Shown: positions 1,043 through 61,449 of the stretch, piece after piece | Layout of the letters: the number at the start of each line of letters is the position of its first letter | Position numbering within the stretch: the first letter of the stretch is position 1 | Assembly: GCF_000002985.6 (NCBI RefSeq) | Contig: NC_003279.8 | Coordinates: forward strand, 8,990,001-9,054,000 | DNA: 64,000 nt | DNA from: Caenorhabditis elegans | Lineage: Eukaryota > Nematoda > Chromadorea > Rhabditida > Rhabditidae | Reading direction: 5' to 3' | Notes under the pieces: model-generated | Told to the model about the DNA's origin: nothing | The model's database searches: none | What the model saw: the letters and a program-made list of their open reading frames with translations, nothing else | Made by a program: the position numbers and the translations under genes

Positions 1043-3461
1043 ATGAAAAGAAACGTTCACAATGAAAAACGCGATATAACAGTATTGATAATTGTGAATA
1101 ATTTGGGAAGAGCGGAAAGTGAATATAGCATTTCATTGAATACAGTTCGATGCTATTGCCAAAAACACAATTATCGATTGGAAATTGTAGAGGATACTGA
1201 ATTTCGAAATTTCTGTCAACAGGAAAATGTAAGTAAAACTATTACACAATTTAATTTTTTTGCGAATGGTCTACCTGAACATACGCTCTCCCAAAATAAT
1301 TATTTCAAATTCGAATTCTCTAAAAATGGTGTGCTCCCTTAATATATACAGTAATCCATTCTATGTTTCCATTTTTGATCAAGAGAAAAACATGAAAAGT
1401 TTTTGCTGAAATTTCAGAGCATGTACCGTCGCCACTGCATAGTTGGTCATTTGCTCCGTAACAATGATTTCATATTTTTGTTAGATCCTGGAATGACTAT
1501 TTTGAATACTGAAATGTGAGAAAAATTTACAAAAATGAAATTATTTTAATAATAATTTTTTTCAGAAGACTAGAACAGTTTACCGATGAAAAGTATGCGT
1601 TGACTATGTTCGATAAATTTTCCAACTGGGAGATTGAAACTAGTAAGTGTTTAATATTTTAAGTTACTAACAAGCAATCCAAAAAATTCAGAAAATTAAA
1701 ATTTTAACTTGTCTCAGATTCATACGTTGTCAAAAACACATATTGGTCCCGCAACTTCTTGATGAAGCTTGCAGACTTTGAATCAAAGCTCCCTTTTTCA
1801 AGTACAGATAACGTTGCAATTCATGTAAGAATTTAGTTTTGAAATCTATATATTAGATATAAAATTTTTGGATATTTCAATTTTAGTATTTTTAAAGCAG
1901 AGATGGCAAATCACCGGAATTTCAAAAATAAAAAGCAAATTTGATAAATATTTAATTTTTGGTCAATTGACTGATTTGCCGCTTGCCAAAAATATACACA
2001 GTTGGCAAATTTTCAAATCAGTAAATTGCCGAAAAACTATTTGCCTCCAAACTCATGAAGTATTCGAAATTGAGAAAATTTTTACTTGCTCTCTCAGTAC
2101 CAATTAAACTAAAAAATTTTCAGATTCTCATTCAGAAAGATTTCTATCCACAGTTCACCGAAGAAGCCGGGACTTGCCTTAAAATTTTGGAAAATTTGGA
2201 ATTTTCCACTTCAAATTCAGCTATTATGTACACATTCGAGGCATGTATTCGAGCAGTTATCGGAGAAAATCACGAGTTCAAAAATTTAAGGATACTTAAA
2301 AAAGTTTGATTTGTACCTGTTCCAAGCATATGTATCTTTAAAAAATATTATTTAACAGGGCACAGGCTGGGCGCGAGATATTTGGTTGACTGAATCAAAA
2401 TGGAGCCAGCAAAGAGATTTTATGCTCAGTGGTTTGAAATATTCACTGAAGACTGAAATTTCAAATGGGATACTGTCTAATATGTGAGTCTTCCTTAATT
2501 TAAAAAAAACCTTCAATGTTGATGGTTGAATTTCAAGCTTTTAAAATGTAGTCTACTCGAAAAAGTACAAAAATTTCAGAAAAAATCACTGAAAACATGA
2601 ATTTCTATTTGAACACACACACTTTACGTAAGCCAACGCTACATCATTTTTTGTCGGCTGCCGGTTTTTGTTAATAATCCTAAAACCATTGCATGATAGA
2701 TCCTCAGGACGGAAGGGGCGTCAGGTCGTTGTACCTCATTACCAGTATGGAGAGGGTCTCATTTATCATAAAATCAAAAAAGTTGAAAAAAGAAACCTCA
2801 CTCGGTTCGCAAGAACCATCAAACCCTCTCTGAAGGGTCATCACCAGCATCTCCCTTAATTTTGGAAAAAAAGGATCCCGAGAGGGATCCGGGAGTCTGT
2901 AAAAATCCGAGTTTCAACATTTTCTGTGAAACAAGGAACAACTCGGCAAATTAATTAATTTAAATTCAATTATTCGCCACCCATCCCTGTTAGATATCAA
3001 GAAAATATTTATCAATTTAAAAGCTCAGGTTTCAGTCAGATTATTTTATTTTCTCATTTTACTTTCAATTTAATTTTTCCGAAGGCGTTTTTCGGGCGCG
3101 GAGGCGGAAAGGCAGACGTGTTTTTTGTAGTTAATGATGATGTACCGTGTTTCAGTATGGAATAATGAATTGATCACAAGTTTAGAATACTTCACCAAAG
3201 CGCTTTTTTCTATAGAATTTTTCAGAAACAATTTTGATCAATTTTATTTGCAGATTCCTCGGCAAAGAATCCTGGAAATCACCATTCCTAAAAACTCCGT
3301 TTTTAGGAGAATGTGATGAAAAGGATTGGATACACGATCAATCTCTCATCACAACAAAAACCGAAATCGAAAGGTATCTAGTGGAGAAATTTAAAGAAGT
3401 TGAGAAAATGCGGTGGCGAAGTTTAGCTGCAGCTGGAAATTATTTAAGTAAACAATCATAG
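1043..3461 (+). CDS. DUF273 family protein (putative glycosyltransferase fold)
   Basis: Seven exons: 1043-1228, 1418-1515, 1566-1642, 1718-1824, 2124-2303, 2359-2483, 3254-3461. All phases agree and give 326 residues. The product carries the DUF273 landmarks I know from nematode paralogues: an RHCIVGHLL block, FDKFSNWEIE, SYVVKNTYWS, STDNVAIHI, and GTGWARDIWLTESKW followed by RDFMLSGLK. DUF273 proteins resemble Golgi GT34/MNN10-type galactosyltransferases; activity is unproven. Oddly, the place where I expect an LDADIG-type DxD motif reads LLDPGMTILN (about residue 87), so metal-sugar-nucleotide binding may be lost. The start was chosen as the first in-frame ATG; an acceptor at 994 could extend the protein by 16 or more residues, and no signal anchor is visible in the model. 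Intron 6 is unusually long (about 770 bp). Confidence 0.85.
2690..2900. repeat. GC-richer island in the last intron of the DUF273 gene
   Basis: A block of about 210 bp inside the 770 bp intron is richer in G and C than its surroundings. It contains a short perfect palindrome built on ggatcc (ggatcc-cgagag-ggatcc, about 2873-2890). It looks like an inserted sequence, perhaps a dispersed repeat, but I cannot name the family. Confidence 0.3.
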
Positions 3462-4713: not shown

Positions 4714-8533
<3,820 letters not shown>

Positions 8534-35855: not shown

Positions 35856-38800
35856 ATGGCCACGGCTGTTGAGCTTGCTCTTCTCAAACAACCATATTTC
35901 GATTTGAATGCTTTATGTAAAACTGTCTTCGTGACTTATAAAGCCGGTCCCGGCTTGAAAAAAATTGTAACAGTGCAGGCTCAGTATGTGGTAGGTACAG
36001 TTTAAAAAAAGATGCATAATGCTTTCCCAGGATATTTGCAACAAGCCCAATGTACGTGGTACGGTAGTATCATTACCTGGCTCACCTGGATCCCATAATG
36101 ATATCAAGTATATGAGAGACTCATTCGAAAAACACAATATTCGTTTAATCTGCGTAAATTGGCCAGGGTCTGAGTTTGTTACAGGTAATATTATTTAAAT
36201 TCTTATATTCCTATTCTCCGCTAATTCCTCTAGTCTTGTATTTTCTTTCCTATTCTGTACTCGTTTTTTTACTAAGGGATGTTTTAGTAAAAATGACCAC
36301 AATTTGCGTATATACATACAATCTGCGAAGGAAATTTTAAAAATTTAAATAAAGTTTATTTTTCCAGAAAAACAGTATTTTCATTCAAATTTCTCGGGTT
36401 AATTTACATTTCTTGCAGGGGGCATGAATGATACCTACACGAATGCAGAACGCAACTCTTATGCCAAAGCATTAATGGAAAAGTTGGAATTGAAAAAAGT
36501 CGAGAAATTAATTTTATTGGGACATTCAAGAGGTGGCGAAAGTGCGCTGCAACTGGCGTGTACTCTGTCTGTTAGTCTTAATTTATTTTGAAAAAATTGG
36601 AATAATTTGTTTTAATTTAAATTTTCTAGGATGACAGAAGTTGGCCGTTGATTGGTGCTGTGATGCTCAATTCTCCTGGATTTGTAGTTCATCGTGGAAT
36701 TTCTATTAGGTATACAGTTTCGGTACTAGCCAGCTATCAAATTAAAAAAAGCATATTTTCAAATAAATAATTGTTGAAGAATGGGAACAATCAACACTGT
36801 TTCGTTTCTCGTAAAACTTCGCTGGAAAATTGTTGACTGTATTCTTTTTCCTGTACTTGATTGGTGTAGGTTCACTGTAAAATTATTCGTCTTTCAATTT
36901 TTTTATACAGTTTACAACGATTTCGTTGGTCTCCGCGTGTCCGATGGAAAAGTATGTGCTGCTGCAATGCTTCCAATGCAGACATTTGCATTTGAGGAAC
37001 AGAGAGCTTCAATTGATGAAATGAAGAAGAAACCATGGGCCAGAGACTAAATTATGCTTTCAAATAATACTTAAAAATGCATTTCAGATTCGAATGTTTT
37101 ATGCATATGGTTCAAAAGATTTTCTAGTCGATGAATCAGATTCAGAAGAACTTGCAATGCATTTTGGAGGAGATCACTATGTGAGTTTCTTGACAAAGAT
37201 AGAGCAGAGTTTTCTAATATAATGCAAAACTCTAAAAATATGTTTTGGAAAATGTAAGATATTATAACGCCCAAAACGTTAAGATTAAATGATCAAAGTA
37301 ATAAACATAATATCAAAGAAAACTTTTTTCGGACCCCGAATCTATTCCCGTGTCAGAATGATCGTTTTTGAAACTGCTTATTGCAACAAAAAAAAAACGT
37401 ATCAACATTTTTTTTGCAAAGTTCCACTCTAGTATTTGATACTGTCAGCATTATCGGAGTGCTTTTAAAAAATTTCCCCACTGATACTACTGATTGAAAA
37501 GAACGATGGTTTTTCACGTGTTTCTCCACCTACTGCTCGTTAGATAATTCATCCTCTTCCTCTTCCTATCTCTCTCCTCCCTCCAATCCTATTCCTCAAA
37601 CTTCTGATTACACCTCTTTGACAGTTGATACTCATATCTCTGAACGTTTATCTTCCTCTCAGCAATTTTCCTCGCCCCCCGGTAGCTTTATACCGTCGCT
37701 AGATAACCTAACTCTAAAACCAATGTCTCTTGCAAATGTACGCGGTGTAGCTGTCCTACCTAAGATAATTATGCTCAAAGAATTCTTCACTTCATCAGAC
37801 CTGGATATCCTCTTTCTTACTGAAACTTTTCTTAACAATACAGTACCTTCTAGTCTTTTCGCTTCCCCCCTATTTTCTTTCGTAAGAGTAGACCGTAATC
37901 CAGAACTTCATTCTAAGGTGGCGGAGTTGCTATTATGTACAAGAATTCTTTAAAAATTTCAATTCGTAACATTAACTTTGAAACCCACTATCCCAAGCAT
38001 CGCTGCGAAATTCTGGCCTTTGATATCCTCAACACGCATTCTCCTGCGCCCCCACTTACGGTTTTCTTAGTTTATAGACCACCTTGCTGTTCCGTAGCTG
38101 AAAACGCCTCTCTAATAGCCCATCTTGAAGATTATTTACCACTCAGCCGCACTCTCCTCACAGGCGATTTTAACTTCCCCCAAATCAATTGGTCATCTCC
38201 CAACGCATCGTCGCACCCATTTGCCTCCTTTCTGTGCTCAAGTGATCTTTCGCAAAGAGTTCGATTCCCAACCAGAGTTTCTTGCACCTCCAGTAATATT
38301 CTAGACCTAGTGGCCTGCTCCTCCGATATCTCTGTTCTGGATCTGGCCCCACAGCCTGCGCTTCTGAACTCGGATCACTTATCTGTTGAATTTAAGATCC
38401 CACTTCCCTATCCTACTGTAATCCCTAGTTGTTCTTCCTCCCAAGATTCTCGCAATGTTTTATTGTATGATTATAAAAAATGCGATTTTCCCTCACTCAA
38501 TAGAGACCTGGCTTGCATTAATTGGCAGTTCGAATTTAGCTTCCTAAACTCGGTTTCTGATAAATTTGAACACCTCCTTTCAATTCTAGAGAACCTCCTA
38601 ACTCAATACTGCCCAACCAAATCAATGATCCCGACCTCTTCTATCCCTCCTTCTTCAAATTCCTTGTGGAAACTTAAACGCCTACGTCAAAAGATTAGTA
38701 AGCTTGTTCTCTCTAGGAATTGTCCTCCCGAAACCATTATAATTGCCCAAGCCAAATACCGCAAGTTGTACCGCAATTACAAAAACTCCCTTCGACGTTC

Positions 38801-41232
38801 TGAAAACGGAATAATCTCCAGCTCAAACTACGCTAAAATTAGGCGTCTCATCAATAGTCGCCTCAAAACGCTAGACCTTGTTCCAGCAATTATATCTGAC
38901 AATAAAACCATAGTTAGTGACTCTGATAAAAGCGAAATTTTTGCTAAAATGTTCGCTTCACACTACTCCCCTGAAAACACCCAGCTTCCTGACCCGCTTC
39001 TCAATAGTCCTCGCAATTCTGATTCTACCAACTCCAACTCGACCACCAACTCTATTAGGAATGATTCCTTCCAACCCTACATAATAGAAAGCGTTCTATC
39101 TAAACTCCCACCCAAATGCGGGTTCTCCCCCCACTGCGCAAATTACTTAGTACTGAAGAAATGCGCCACCCCGCTCGCACTGCCTCTTTCTCTAATATTC
39201 CATCAATCATTTGCTGAATCTACTATTCCCGCCCGATGGAAACAGGCAATAATCATCCCTATTCTCAAAAAGGGTAATCCCTCATCCCCTCACAACTACA
39301 GACCCATCTCGTTGACGGACCCCTTTGTGCGCGTAATGGAACGCATCATCTGCTCCCGAATCCGCACGGATTTTTCCCATCTACTTTCCCCCCATCAACA
39401 TGGGTTCTTACAACTTAGAAGCTGTCCTTCCTCTCTAGTCCGCTCCATTACTCTCTATCACTCTATAATTAGACAGGAAAAATCACTTGACATTATCTTT
39501 TTCGATTTTGCCAAGGCGTTCGATAAAGTCTCCCATTCTATCCTCCTCAAAAAACTTGCTTCATTTGGATTAGACCCCCTCACTTGTTCTTGGTTCAAAG
39601 AATTCCTTAATCAAAGAACGTTCTCAGTAAAAATCAATAAGTTTTTATCTAAAAACACCTACCCCATTTCTTCTGGAGTCCCGCAGGGTTCCGTTTCGGG
39701 CCCTCTCCTCTTCATTTTATTCATAAACGACTTACTGATTGATCTTGAACACTCTATAAATGTCTCCTGCTTTGCGGATGACATTAAAATCTACCATCAC
39801 AACCCTTTAATTATCCAACAATCTATCGACACTATTGTTAGCTGGTCCAAGAAGAATGAGCTGCCCCTCGCTTCTGCCAAATCTGCTTCCCTTTCTCTGG
39901 GTTCCCTAAACACCAACCACCAATACTCAGTTGATGGTGTTCCCATAATCCCCTCTTCTACTGTTCGCGACTTAGGTCTTGTCACCGATCCCAAGCTTAA
40001 ATTTGAGGCCCACATTGCCAAAGTTAGTTCCCTAGCCATGCTTCGGGCTAAACAACTCCTAACAGCATTCTCTTCCAACTCACCTAACTTCTACGGGTTT
40101 CTTTTCAAAACTTACGTGGCTCCAATTATAAATTACTGCGCTGAGGTTTACTCTCCCTCCCCTAATTCATTGCTCTCGACTAAACTTGAGAAACCTCTTA
40201 GACACTTTACCAAGCGCGTTCTGCAACGATGTAATACTAAATTCTCCTCTTATGAAGATAGACTTAGCATAATGAATCTCTTCTCCACCAGACACACTAG
40301 AATTAAAGCTCAAATGAAACTACTCTATAGATTCCTCACTGGATCGTCCCACTTCCCTAGTCTTAATCAATTTGTCTCATTTGCTAGCTCTAGTAGGCAC
40401 CCTATGATTCTCGTTAGAAAGGACAGTTGCACCGCTCACTTTTTCGCCCAATCAGTTCCCATTTGGAATAATCTTTTTAAAAACGTCCCGGTTTTCCTCT
40501 CTCCTTTCCAATTCTCTCACTTTCTCGATCTTCACATTCCCCGGTATTGATACTATGTGATCCCGAGTCCATGTTCTTTTCTTTATAATTTTTCATTCTC
40601 TATTCTTCTTGTTTTATGATTCTTACCTTACCCATTTCCCACACTCGAGATGAACTCTTGCTGGGTTTGTCTCGTTTTATTAATTTATTTTCTCATTAAA
40701 CCTAAATTGTACTACCTTTTTTAATGTATTACCTTTTTTGGCTTATGTTGAAAATAAATCAATCAATTAATAAACATAATATCAAAGAAAACTTTTTTCG
40801 GACCCCGAATCTATTACCGTGTCAGAATGATCGTTTTTGAAACTGCTTATTGCAAAAAAAAAAAAACGTATCAACATTTTTTTTTGCAAAGTTCCACTCT
40901 AGTATTTGATACTGTCAGCATTATCGGAGTGCTTTTAAAAAATTTCCCCACTGATACTACTGATTGAAAAGAACGATGGTTTTGCGTAACGAACAAATAT
41001 TCCGCACACTATTCTTATTGTAAATCGTCGAATTACAAACAAATTTCAGATAATCCACAGCAAAAAAGAATCGGAAGAAACGATTCCAAAAATCTGGAAC
41101 AGTTACGAGAGAGGGCAATCATATGTAACTGCAAACTTCACTGAAGAGGGCCATTATCTTCATAAAACATATCCAGAATTCTTAATTCAAATCTTCGGAG
41201 GGATTTTCGATGTTAAGACAGAAAAATCATGA
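35856..41232 (+). CDS. Alpha/beta hydrolase (DUF1057 type), possibly disrupted
   Basis: Eight exons: 35856-35990, 36031-36184, 36419-36570, 36630-36709, 36780-36865, 36911-37047, 37088-37180, 41050-41232; 339 residues if all are joined. The product has the serine-hydrolase layout: oxyanion-side GTVVSLPGSPGSHND, nucleophile elbow GHSRGG (Ser133), a likely acid in YGSKDFLVDE and a His in GHYLHKTYPE near the end. The family is a nematode-expanded group of unknown substrate. Two oddities: after the last codon of exon 6 (GAC) the genome reads TAA, with no GT in the 45 nt before the next acceptor, so the expected donor is missing. The final intron (37181-41049) contains a LINE. Without the donor the product stops at 248 residues and loses the acid and His. 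A GTATGT donor earlier in exon 6 (from 36950) is in phase and could rescue splicing at the cost of about 32 residues. Confidence 0.75.
37299..37513 (+). repeat. Left copy of a 215 bp direct repeat flanking the LINE
   Basis: It starts taataaacataatatc and ends gaacgatggtttt. It reappears almost identically at 40768-40983 on the other side of the LINE. This is a very long target-site duplication; this copy or the other is the original intron sequence. Confidence 0.92.
37514..40767 (+). mobile_element. CR1/Jockey-type non-LTR retrotransposon (LINE), probably 5'-truncated
   Basis: A 3.25 kb insertion with different base and codon use from its surroundings (C- and T-rich coding strand). It encodes an APE-like endonuclease and a reverse transcriptase, and ends in an A/T-rich tail (aataaatcaatcaat) rather than a long poly(A). 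The RT motifs (PQGSVSGPLLFILFINDLL and FADDIKIYHH) and the C-terminal domain (FFAQSVPIWNNL) are of the CR1/Jockey group, which in C. elegans includes the Sam elements as I recall. It lies in the last intron of the hydrolase gene in the same orientation. The open frame runs straight from the left junction with no 5' UTR, so the element is probably 5'-truncated. Confidence 0.9.
37516..40550 (+). pseudogene. LINE endonuclease-reverse transcriptase ORF with a frameshift
   Basis: The first part (to about 37915) reads an endonuclease N-terminus with LANVRGV and DILFLTETFL. A one-base shift near 37915-37930 then moves the frame to a long open stretch (37935-40550, 871 codons). That stretch holds the rest of the endonuclease (LLTGDFNFP, SDHLSVEF), the RT fingers and palm with an intact FADD, and the C-terminal domain. 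No other break is visible in the long part. The frameshift in the endonuclease would prevent a full protein, so this copy is probably not autonomous, although the RT part alone is uninterrupted. Confidence 0.85.
40768..40983 (+). repeat. Right copy of the 215 bp direct repeat flanking the LINE
   Basis: Nearly identical to 37299-37513. I count about three differences: ctattaccg versus ctattcccg, one change in the A-run after ttgcaa, and one extra T in the following T-run. Confidence 0.92.
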
Positions 41233-59538: not shown

Positions 59539-61269
59539 TTATTTAGGCATTGTGAAATGTTTCTTGAGTGGTTGCCAATCCTTGTAGTAGTCTTTATCCA
59601 CATTTTGGTAAACTGCCCAGTTGGTTATGGCCATGTTCAAAGAACTTTCAAACATGAAAGACTGCAAAAAGATATTGTAGAACTTGAAGCGGGTTATTCC
59701 TTTTTTAAATACAAATCTTACCATAGTTCCTTCAGCAACTCTTTGTGGTTTAAGGTCAGCATTTGATGCCATTTCAAAACAATTAAAATCAGGTCCATGT
59801 GGAGTCATCATTGAATGAAGGGAACCACCACCTGGCTTGAATCCTCCTTCTTTTGCTTCATAGCATCCAGTGATTAATCCCATATACTCAGACATACAGT
59901 TTCCTGAATTTTGATCTTTCAAAAAAAGGATTGAAACTAGAACTTACTGTGATAATATGGTGGCCTGAAAGTGTTATCGGCACAACCCCATCTTGGTGGA
60001 AAAATCACAAAATCAGCAATAGCGGTACCATGCTTGACAGATGGAGCTGTGAGAACAGTAAAAATCGATGGATCCTGAAATTGAACAGTGGAGATATAGT
60101 AAAAAATACATTCAAATTGAGGCAACATTTTTATAGAATTTTAAATCGTGATAATAAAACTTTTGGCAGTTTGATATCATGAATATTTTCTTACTATTAG
60201 TTGTGTCGTCTACTCCACATTCAATTAAAAACAATTTTGATTAAACCTTTTTCAAAATCAGCATTTTAATTAATAAACTTACACAATGATCGAATGAAAC
60301 TGTATTGATAACCATAAACTTTTTCAAGTCATACTTGTATGGAACATAGTTTCCATGCCAACCAACAACATCAAATGGAGAATGACCCTGAGAACAGCGA
60401 ATTATTGAAATATTTTCATTGACAACTAACTTGTTTGGCCTGGAACCAGGATCCTTGATACTTGTTGATAATGGTAAATTCAACATCGAGATCTTCAAAC
60501 CATGCGACTGGAGCCTCAAAGTCTCTTGGATTGGCAAGACCATTTGCTCCAATTGGTCCAAGATCAGGAAGTTGGAAGTGAGTTCCGTATACTTCTAAAA
60601 TGTATCCACGAGATGGTCCACGAACAGCCACGGAGAAGCGAATACCTAGAATATTGATAAGGATTGGATTTTGATTCAATGTTTTTGTATGAGTGTTTTA
60701 AAAAAACCTTGGGGAATCACAGCAATCTCTTGTGGATTAACGAGCAGACGTCCAAACTCTGTGGTGATTTCCAAGGCACCTTGTTGTGGAACTGAATCAT
60801 TTAATCATTTAAAAGTATACTTTTTCCTTTTTCTATATACCAATCAAGAAATCTCCATCAGAATTATACATTGCCGTATGCTCCATACTGGCGTTGCACG
60901 AGAATTGATGAATTGCCAATCCAGTGCGACTAATAACATCTCCACCACCGCAAACAGTGTAGAGATTATCCACAAAAGTAACACCTTCTTTTGTTGGAAG
61001 TGGGAAAGGATTCCAGCGATATTGATTTGGATTTGGAGGGATTGAAGAAAAGTTGTTGGTCCAATGTTGGTCATTCTCTTTCATTGCCTCGAATGGTCGG
61101 TGAATTACCGATGGACGAATACGGTAGAGCCACGAACGTTGATTTTGTGATCGGGGAGCTGTGAAAGCAGTTCCACTGAGCTGTTCCGCATAAAGCCCAT
61201 GGGAACACTTCTGGAAAGCTATTGAAGTTACTTAGGAAAAATAAAAAATTTTCGCTCCCGGGTGGGCTC

Positions 61270-61305
<36 letters not shown>

Positions 61306-61449
61306 GCCTATTGCGCCACGGAAGCACGTTTCCCACAAAGTTGTGAAAGGTGCACATACCTGCGGTGAGTTTTGTCCAACAGGCAATGCATCAGGTACTC
61401 TTGGATCCGAAGTAGCATGTTCGTTGCCGAACCCAGTAAGGTATTTTAA
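59539..61449 (-). CDS. hgo-1: Homogentisate 1,2-dioxygenase
   Basis: Eight exons (61449-61360, 61210-60841, 60791-60708, 60645-60431, 60387-60283, 60074-59948, 59903-59722, 59661-59539) encode 431 residues; the few N-terminal codons with the ATG are in an unseen upstream exon. Landmarks: [16 protein letters not shown] at the start, [73 protein letters not shown], and [15 protein letters not shown]. The His and Glu of the last blocks match the iron ligands of the family. The enzyme opens the aromatic ring of homogentisate in tyrosine breakdown (cytosol, Fe(II)-dependent). A tRNA-Asn gene sits in the 61211-61359 intron, on the same strand. A CaaX-box gene follows closely and may share the transcript. 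Confidence 0.95.
61253..61325 (-). tRNA. tRNA-Asn (GTT anticodon)
   Basis: 73 nt on the minus strand, beginning GCTTCCGTGGCGCAATAGGC. The acceptor stem GCTTCCG pairs with CGGGAGC (one T-G pair), the discriminator is G, the anticodon loop is CTGTTAA (anticodon GTT), and the T loop is GGTTCGAGCC with the standard B-box. It lies wholly inside an intron of hgo-1, same orientation. Confidence 0.95.

Follow-up and report, generated by a model that had tools for sequence, protein, structure and literature searches.

The window analysed here, a stretch of 64,000 nucleotides from Caenorhabditis elegans (C1:8990001-9054000, where we equate C1 to C5 with chromosomes I to V and C6 with chromosome X), contains a LINE set between two nearly identical direct repeats, which the sequence supports as a target-site duplication, a single ancestral copy of the target being assumed. 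Both repeats were read on the forward strand and delimited by repeat alignment, the left one (37299..37513) having 215 bases and the right one (40768..40983) 216. Aligned globally, they are identical at 213 positions, with 2 mismatches and a single-base gap within a stretch of T, in agreement with the earlier note on this DNA, which had spoken of two copies of about 215 bp differing at about three positions. When the 64-kb window was compared with itself by BLAST, they formed the sole listed non-overlapping direct-repeat pair of at least 80 bases with at least 90% identity. The right repeat begins immediately after the 3′ end common to the element family, and the left one ends, bar 6 bases in common, at the switch from target to element that is revealed by comparison with another copy, L038; the exact bracketing of the element that had been claimed is thus borne out at both junctions. 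No extra templated bases were found at either element junction, and the weaker similarity outside the repeats, between 37278-37298 and 40747-40767, pairs target sequence with the A/T-rich tail of the element.

In a search of the genome, which passes over simple repeats and very common words, the 215-base repeat was matched at these two places only. Because the match is confined to this locus, the repeat is not element sequence, and what adjoins both ends of the element is host sequence; the earlier note would have given up its reading had the repeat stood at both ends of every copy, which is not what the search shows. The family flanks agree, since none of the 12 other close copies examined carries a long repeat anchored at the 3′ end.

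The element, its truncation and its putative host intron

The element is a non-LTR retrotransposon copy of 3254 bases (37514..40767, forward strand), recognized by its domains and by the existence of further copies. The main part of its predicted ORF2 is a frame of 877 aa on the same strand (37917..40550), which covers part of the endonuclease plus the reverse transcriptase, in that order: Exo_endo_phos_2 (PF14529, 2.1e-14) and Exo_endo_phos (PF03372, 6.1e-7), then RVT_1 (PF00078, 2.2e-36). The domain search of the element coding part gave no match to an integrase and none to RNase H. ORF2 starts in a different frame, an open one of 151 aa from stop to stop (37498..37953, forward strand) whose first codons fall inside the left repeat; since this start and the main part lie in different frames, and the residues split between them sit in one frame in L038, the window copy is broken by a frameshift within ORF2. 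At its 3′ end there is a tail of short CAAT/ATCA repeats (40754..40767, forward strand, read from the sequence), whose length varies between copies. With an endonuclease followed by a reverse transcriptase, a constant 3′ end, variable 5′ truncation and no LTRs, the element is, by these predicted features, a LINE of the endonuclease/exonuclease/phosphatase type. A short tandem-repeat tail, no RNase H and short or no target duplications are traits of the CR1/Jockey group, to which the element may belong, a label given by the earlier note. The picture here is mixed: there is a CAAT/ATCA tail, no RNase H match was obtained, and the duplications of most copies are short or undetectable, but that of the window copy has 215 bases.

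With the element as query, at least 13 other copies at about 82-99% identity were found in the genome; 40 of 78 candidates were scored, so that copy numbers are lower bounds, two rows on C6 were counted as a single copy (L037), and rows of fewer than 75 bases at 80-85% were disregarded. Among the candidates scored, the 3′ end falls at query position 3253 or 3254 in 12 of the 13 other copies, the exception being an internal fragment (C5:15841473-15841811), and the 5′ starts vary widely among the 13. This fixed 3′ end of the family implies that the right repeat begins exactly at the end of the element. The 5′ side was clarified by L038 (C6:1638595-1641858), which is 98% identical, aligns with the window copy from the latter's first base onward and runs on for about 680 bases past its 5′ break, coding there for most of a 219-aa frame (stop to stop), ORF1. 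Parts of this ORF1 were matched in related copies at 68% (L045), 44% (L048) and 27% (L052) identity, although no Pfam match for ORF1 was obtained. As its parts recur in related copies, ORF1 belongs to the element, where it precedes ORF2, and was lost from the window copy. This copy is therefore 5′-truncated and devoid of ORF1, a detail missing from the earlier note.

The break coincides with a microhomology between target and element, GGTTTT, at 37508..37513 on the forward strand and also at 40978-40983; the element sequence upstream of the break, visible in L038, includes these same six bases. At least 6 shared bases occurred in 0.19% of 200,000 random element/target junctions. A full-length window copy, suggested by the start of the L038 match at the very same base, was considered and rejected, given that L038 extends into ORF1 and that the GGTTTT in common is microhomology.

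The insertion lies, in the sense orientation, within what we infer to be an intron of a host gene (37181..41049, forward strand), delimited by GTGAGT at 37181 and by a TTTCAG ending at 41049, after which an open frame follows; minus the insert, this putative intron would measure about 399 bases. Elsewhere in the window, a tRNA-Asn (GTT) gene at 61253-61325 on the minus strand is the only Rfam match at gathering score.

Flanks of related copies

How common such duplications are was assessed in 47 related copies, two of which carry a long target duplication, the window copy and L048 on C4, and the remaining 45 do not; this rarity indicates that something unusual happened at the window insertion. 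Whole upstream and downstream flanks were aligned for 42 copies: 13 of the 14 of family A (DNA identity from about 82% upwards, the internal fragment on C5 being left out), 8 of family C, drawn from 47 match rows and with flanks of about 500 bases in seven of them, and 21 related ones at about 68-76%. The last correspond to 22 loci, with 6 further rows lacking a locus left out; their flanks are mostly of 1.2-1.5 kb and their ends were set by cross-matching. Only two of these 42, the window copy and L048, have a repeat of at least 25 bases whose start lies close to the 3′ end, and each of these two repeats extends exactly to the 5′ boundary. In five more distant copies (L047 and L049-L052) no direct repeat of at least 25 bases at 80% identity or more was found bracketing the element.

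L048 (C4:114676-118510) is a 3835-base element of a related family in which part of ORF1 is detectable. Its repeats, 321 bases long and 99.4% identical, stand exactly at both element ends, at L048:1619-1939 and 5775-6095 (C4:114355-118831), and in the genome search this target sequence had only partial relatives elsewhere, at no more than 92% identity.

Short duplications were scored with a separate rule that views about 60 bases and is blind to long repeats, so that the window copy scores 0 and L048 scores 4. Exact duplications of 10, 10 and 13 bases were found in L033, L034 and L036, that is, in 3 of the 13 family A copies, whereas none of 212 mismatched flank pairs reached 10 bases (7 of the 212 reached at least 7), which indicates that the family uses ordinary target priming. 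The other copies of families A and C score 0-7, values that chance alone gives or nearly gives. In L033, L036, L040, L011, L019, L025 and L031 there are matches of 20-23 bases that begin close to the 3′ end, but none that also ends at the 5′ boundary. At the 5′ end of L038 a match of 17 bases falls within a minisatellite, which makes the duplication of this copy ambiguous (7 by the short-duplication rule).

Some of these loci have peculiarities of their own. L038, within C6:1635595-1644858, has a minisatellite array with units of about 26 bases on either side; the two arrays are seemingly related and in opposite orientation. L041 (C2:653822-661392) is 5′-truncated and its flanks look by eye like mutual reverse complements, as if its point of insertion had been the middle of a palindromic repeat. 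L037 (C6:13267752-13274304) is rearranged into two element pieces 180 bases apart, with a short repeat of element sequence on the 5′ side and ORF1 fragments just upstream, which make its 5′ end uncertain. Finally, a copy at C3:393833 with a 1023-aa frame, which we take, as a guess from the reading frame, to be of RTE type, served as a positive control for long duplications; apart from a dispersed repeat of 77% identity its flank windows have nothing notable in common, so that it is uninformative.

Routes to a long duplication

With the structure of the two junctions, the 5′ truncation, the microhomology and the non-element nature of the repeat shown above, we regard as very probable a single intronic insertion by target-primed reverse transcription in which the second strand was broken about 215 bases away, again on the assumption of one ancestral copy of the target. 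The endonuclease would have opened the bottom strand at the present 37298/37299, freeing a 3′ end to serve as primer for the copying of the element RNA into cDNA, which would start at the CAAT-repeat tail. The synthesis would have halted short of the RNA 5′ end, with the loss of ORF1, and the top strand would have been broken about 215 bases downstream of the first nick. Its 3′ end, finishing in GGTTTT, could then pair with six complementary bases of the unfinished cDNA and prime the second strand, and fill-in of the 215-base single-stranded stretches would leave the target sequence present once on either side of the element, the length of the duplication being the distance between the two breaks. 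The order of these events and the distant second-strand break are what we infer; the latter need not be a cut by the element and may instead go back to a nick made by the host, a gap left in replication or an intermediate of repair. The earlier note had held that the insertion implies nicks far apart on the two strands. This remains the simplest route to such a repeat, but as a necessity it does not stand, since other routes are possible. The review PMC2881922, in the part available to us, presents the same target-priming scheme and considers that the cutting of the second strand is in most cases not known.

Among the other routes, the one that fares best is an origin in repair, in which a break at the insertion site was followed by repair synthesis, or a stalled fork, that copied about 215 bases of target, and the cDNA end was joined by microhomology. 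We hold it to be a possible but not a probable origin, and since it is a variant of the above, with the same insertion and a different second end, the odds of both overlap. It yields an identical end product and finds some accommodation in the 6-base microhomology at the 5′ junction; moreover, exposed replication or repair ends are named as possible second-strand primers in PMC5223499. Against it, neither junction carries the extra templated bases looked for, and a distant nick would leave an indistinguishable sequence. Much less credible is a tandem duplication of the 215 bases beforehand, with the element landing at the junction of both copies, for this demands an insertion precisely at the repeat boundary, and the 321-base repeats of L048 would require the same coincidence again. 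Fainter still are the prospects of a misjoin in the assembly that doubled the flank, given that the copies differ at three positions and that the same anatomy is found at L048 with another target sequence. LTR-type terminal repeats were rejected as practically out of the question: the repeats are indeed direct, near-identical and at both ends, but within the sensitivity of the genome search they were matched at this locus only and are not common to family members, they start with TA and end with TT, and the coding part of the element encodes an endonuclease and a reverse transcriptase, without any match to an integrase.

The differences between the repeats allow a rough dating. At a mutation rate of 2.7e-9 per site and generation, 2 substitutions in 215 bases correspond to an age of some 1.7 million generations (Poisson interval 0.2-6.2 million), an estimate that conversion between the repeats would bias towards too young an age. 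The insertion is young but not very fresh; the near-identity of the repeats had been taken to indicate a recent event, and youth is upheld while freshness, at some 0.2-6 million generations, is not. Divergent wild isolates may lack the insertion.

A more speculative idea, to which we give little credence, is that in C. elegans LINEs of this group long cDNAs are favoured by a distinct second outcome, with attack of the second strand 200-320 bases away. Two of the three copies longer than 3 kb among the 21 examined of families A and C carry the long duplications, a link that was spotted post hoc on three copies. It is countered by L038, which exceeds 3 kb and has at most 17 ambiguous bases, and by L045, a long related copy with ORF1 and no long duplication. 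If the idea were true, a step of the worm host, for instance fork-coupled or polymerase-theta joining, would set the length of the duplication.

Meaning and comparison with known systems

Long duplications are the rare tail of a known process, of which there are now two clean examples in one genome. The case is less of a surprise than the earlier note made it, as long duplications have been described in other LINEs, most of all in L1, and by itself it overturns nothing. A literature search of partial coverage turned up no paper that describes them for CR1-like LINEs of C. elegans. The way in which LINEs cleave and join the second strand of the target has yet to be settled, according to the available part of PMC2881922, and two natural insertions with duplications of 215 and 321 bases, with clean junctions and in a genetically tractable animal, offer material to ask if the distance is fixed by host repair or by the element. 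Moreover, long duplications might permit the precise loss of an element by recombination, mimicking an empty site, as has been suggested for L1 in the part of PMC5223499 available.

Rte-1 of C. elegans (RTE clade), from the same host, has long flanking repeats, as the earlier note also stated. Like the window element it is non-LTR and intronic, and it presumably belongs to another lineage. Its location is an intron of prk-1 (PMC1291365, as far as the text was available). In zebrafish ZfL2-1 (L2 clade), 93% of the inserts in DT40 cells have duplications of 1-8 bp, and those above 20 bp are handled as a class of their own (PMC4245944, in the part available). These very short usual duplications resemble most copies of the window element's family; unlike the window copy, 200-300 bp are not described as usual for ZfL2-1 in the portion of PMC4245944 available.

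A close parallel is found in human L1, also a LINE with usually short duplications and a minority above 100 bp (PMC5223499, PMC2912911 and PMC4245944, each in part), and with the same combination of 5′ truncation and microhomology at the 5′ junction (accessible part of PMC4245944). Extremely long duplications at 5′-truncated L1 inserts in HeLa cells are cited in the accessible part of PMC2912911, and, according to the sections of PMC5223499 available, duplications above 100 bp never exceed 10% of HeLa events, were seen in 4 of 7 cases in XPA-, 21 of 23 in XPC- and 22 of 28 in XPD-deficient lines, against 3 of 9 after complementation of XPD cells, and have been attributed, as a proposal, to a distant nick. 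Unlike the window element, human L1 belongs to another LINE lineage and has a poly-A tail, and its long cases, in the parts of these sources available, come from cultured or repair-deficient cells, whereas the window case comes from the worm reference genome.
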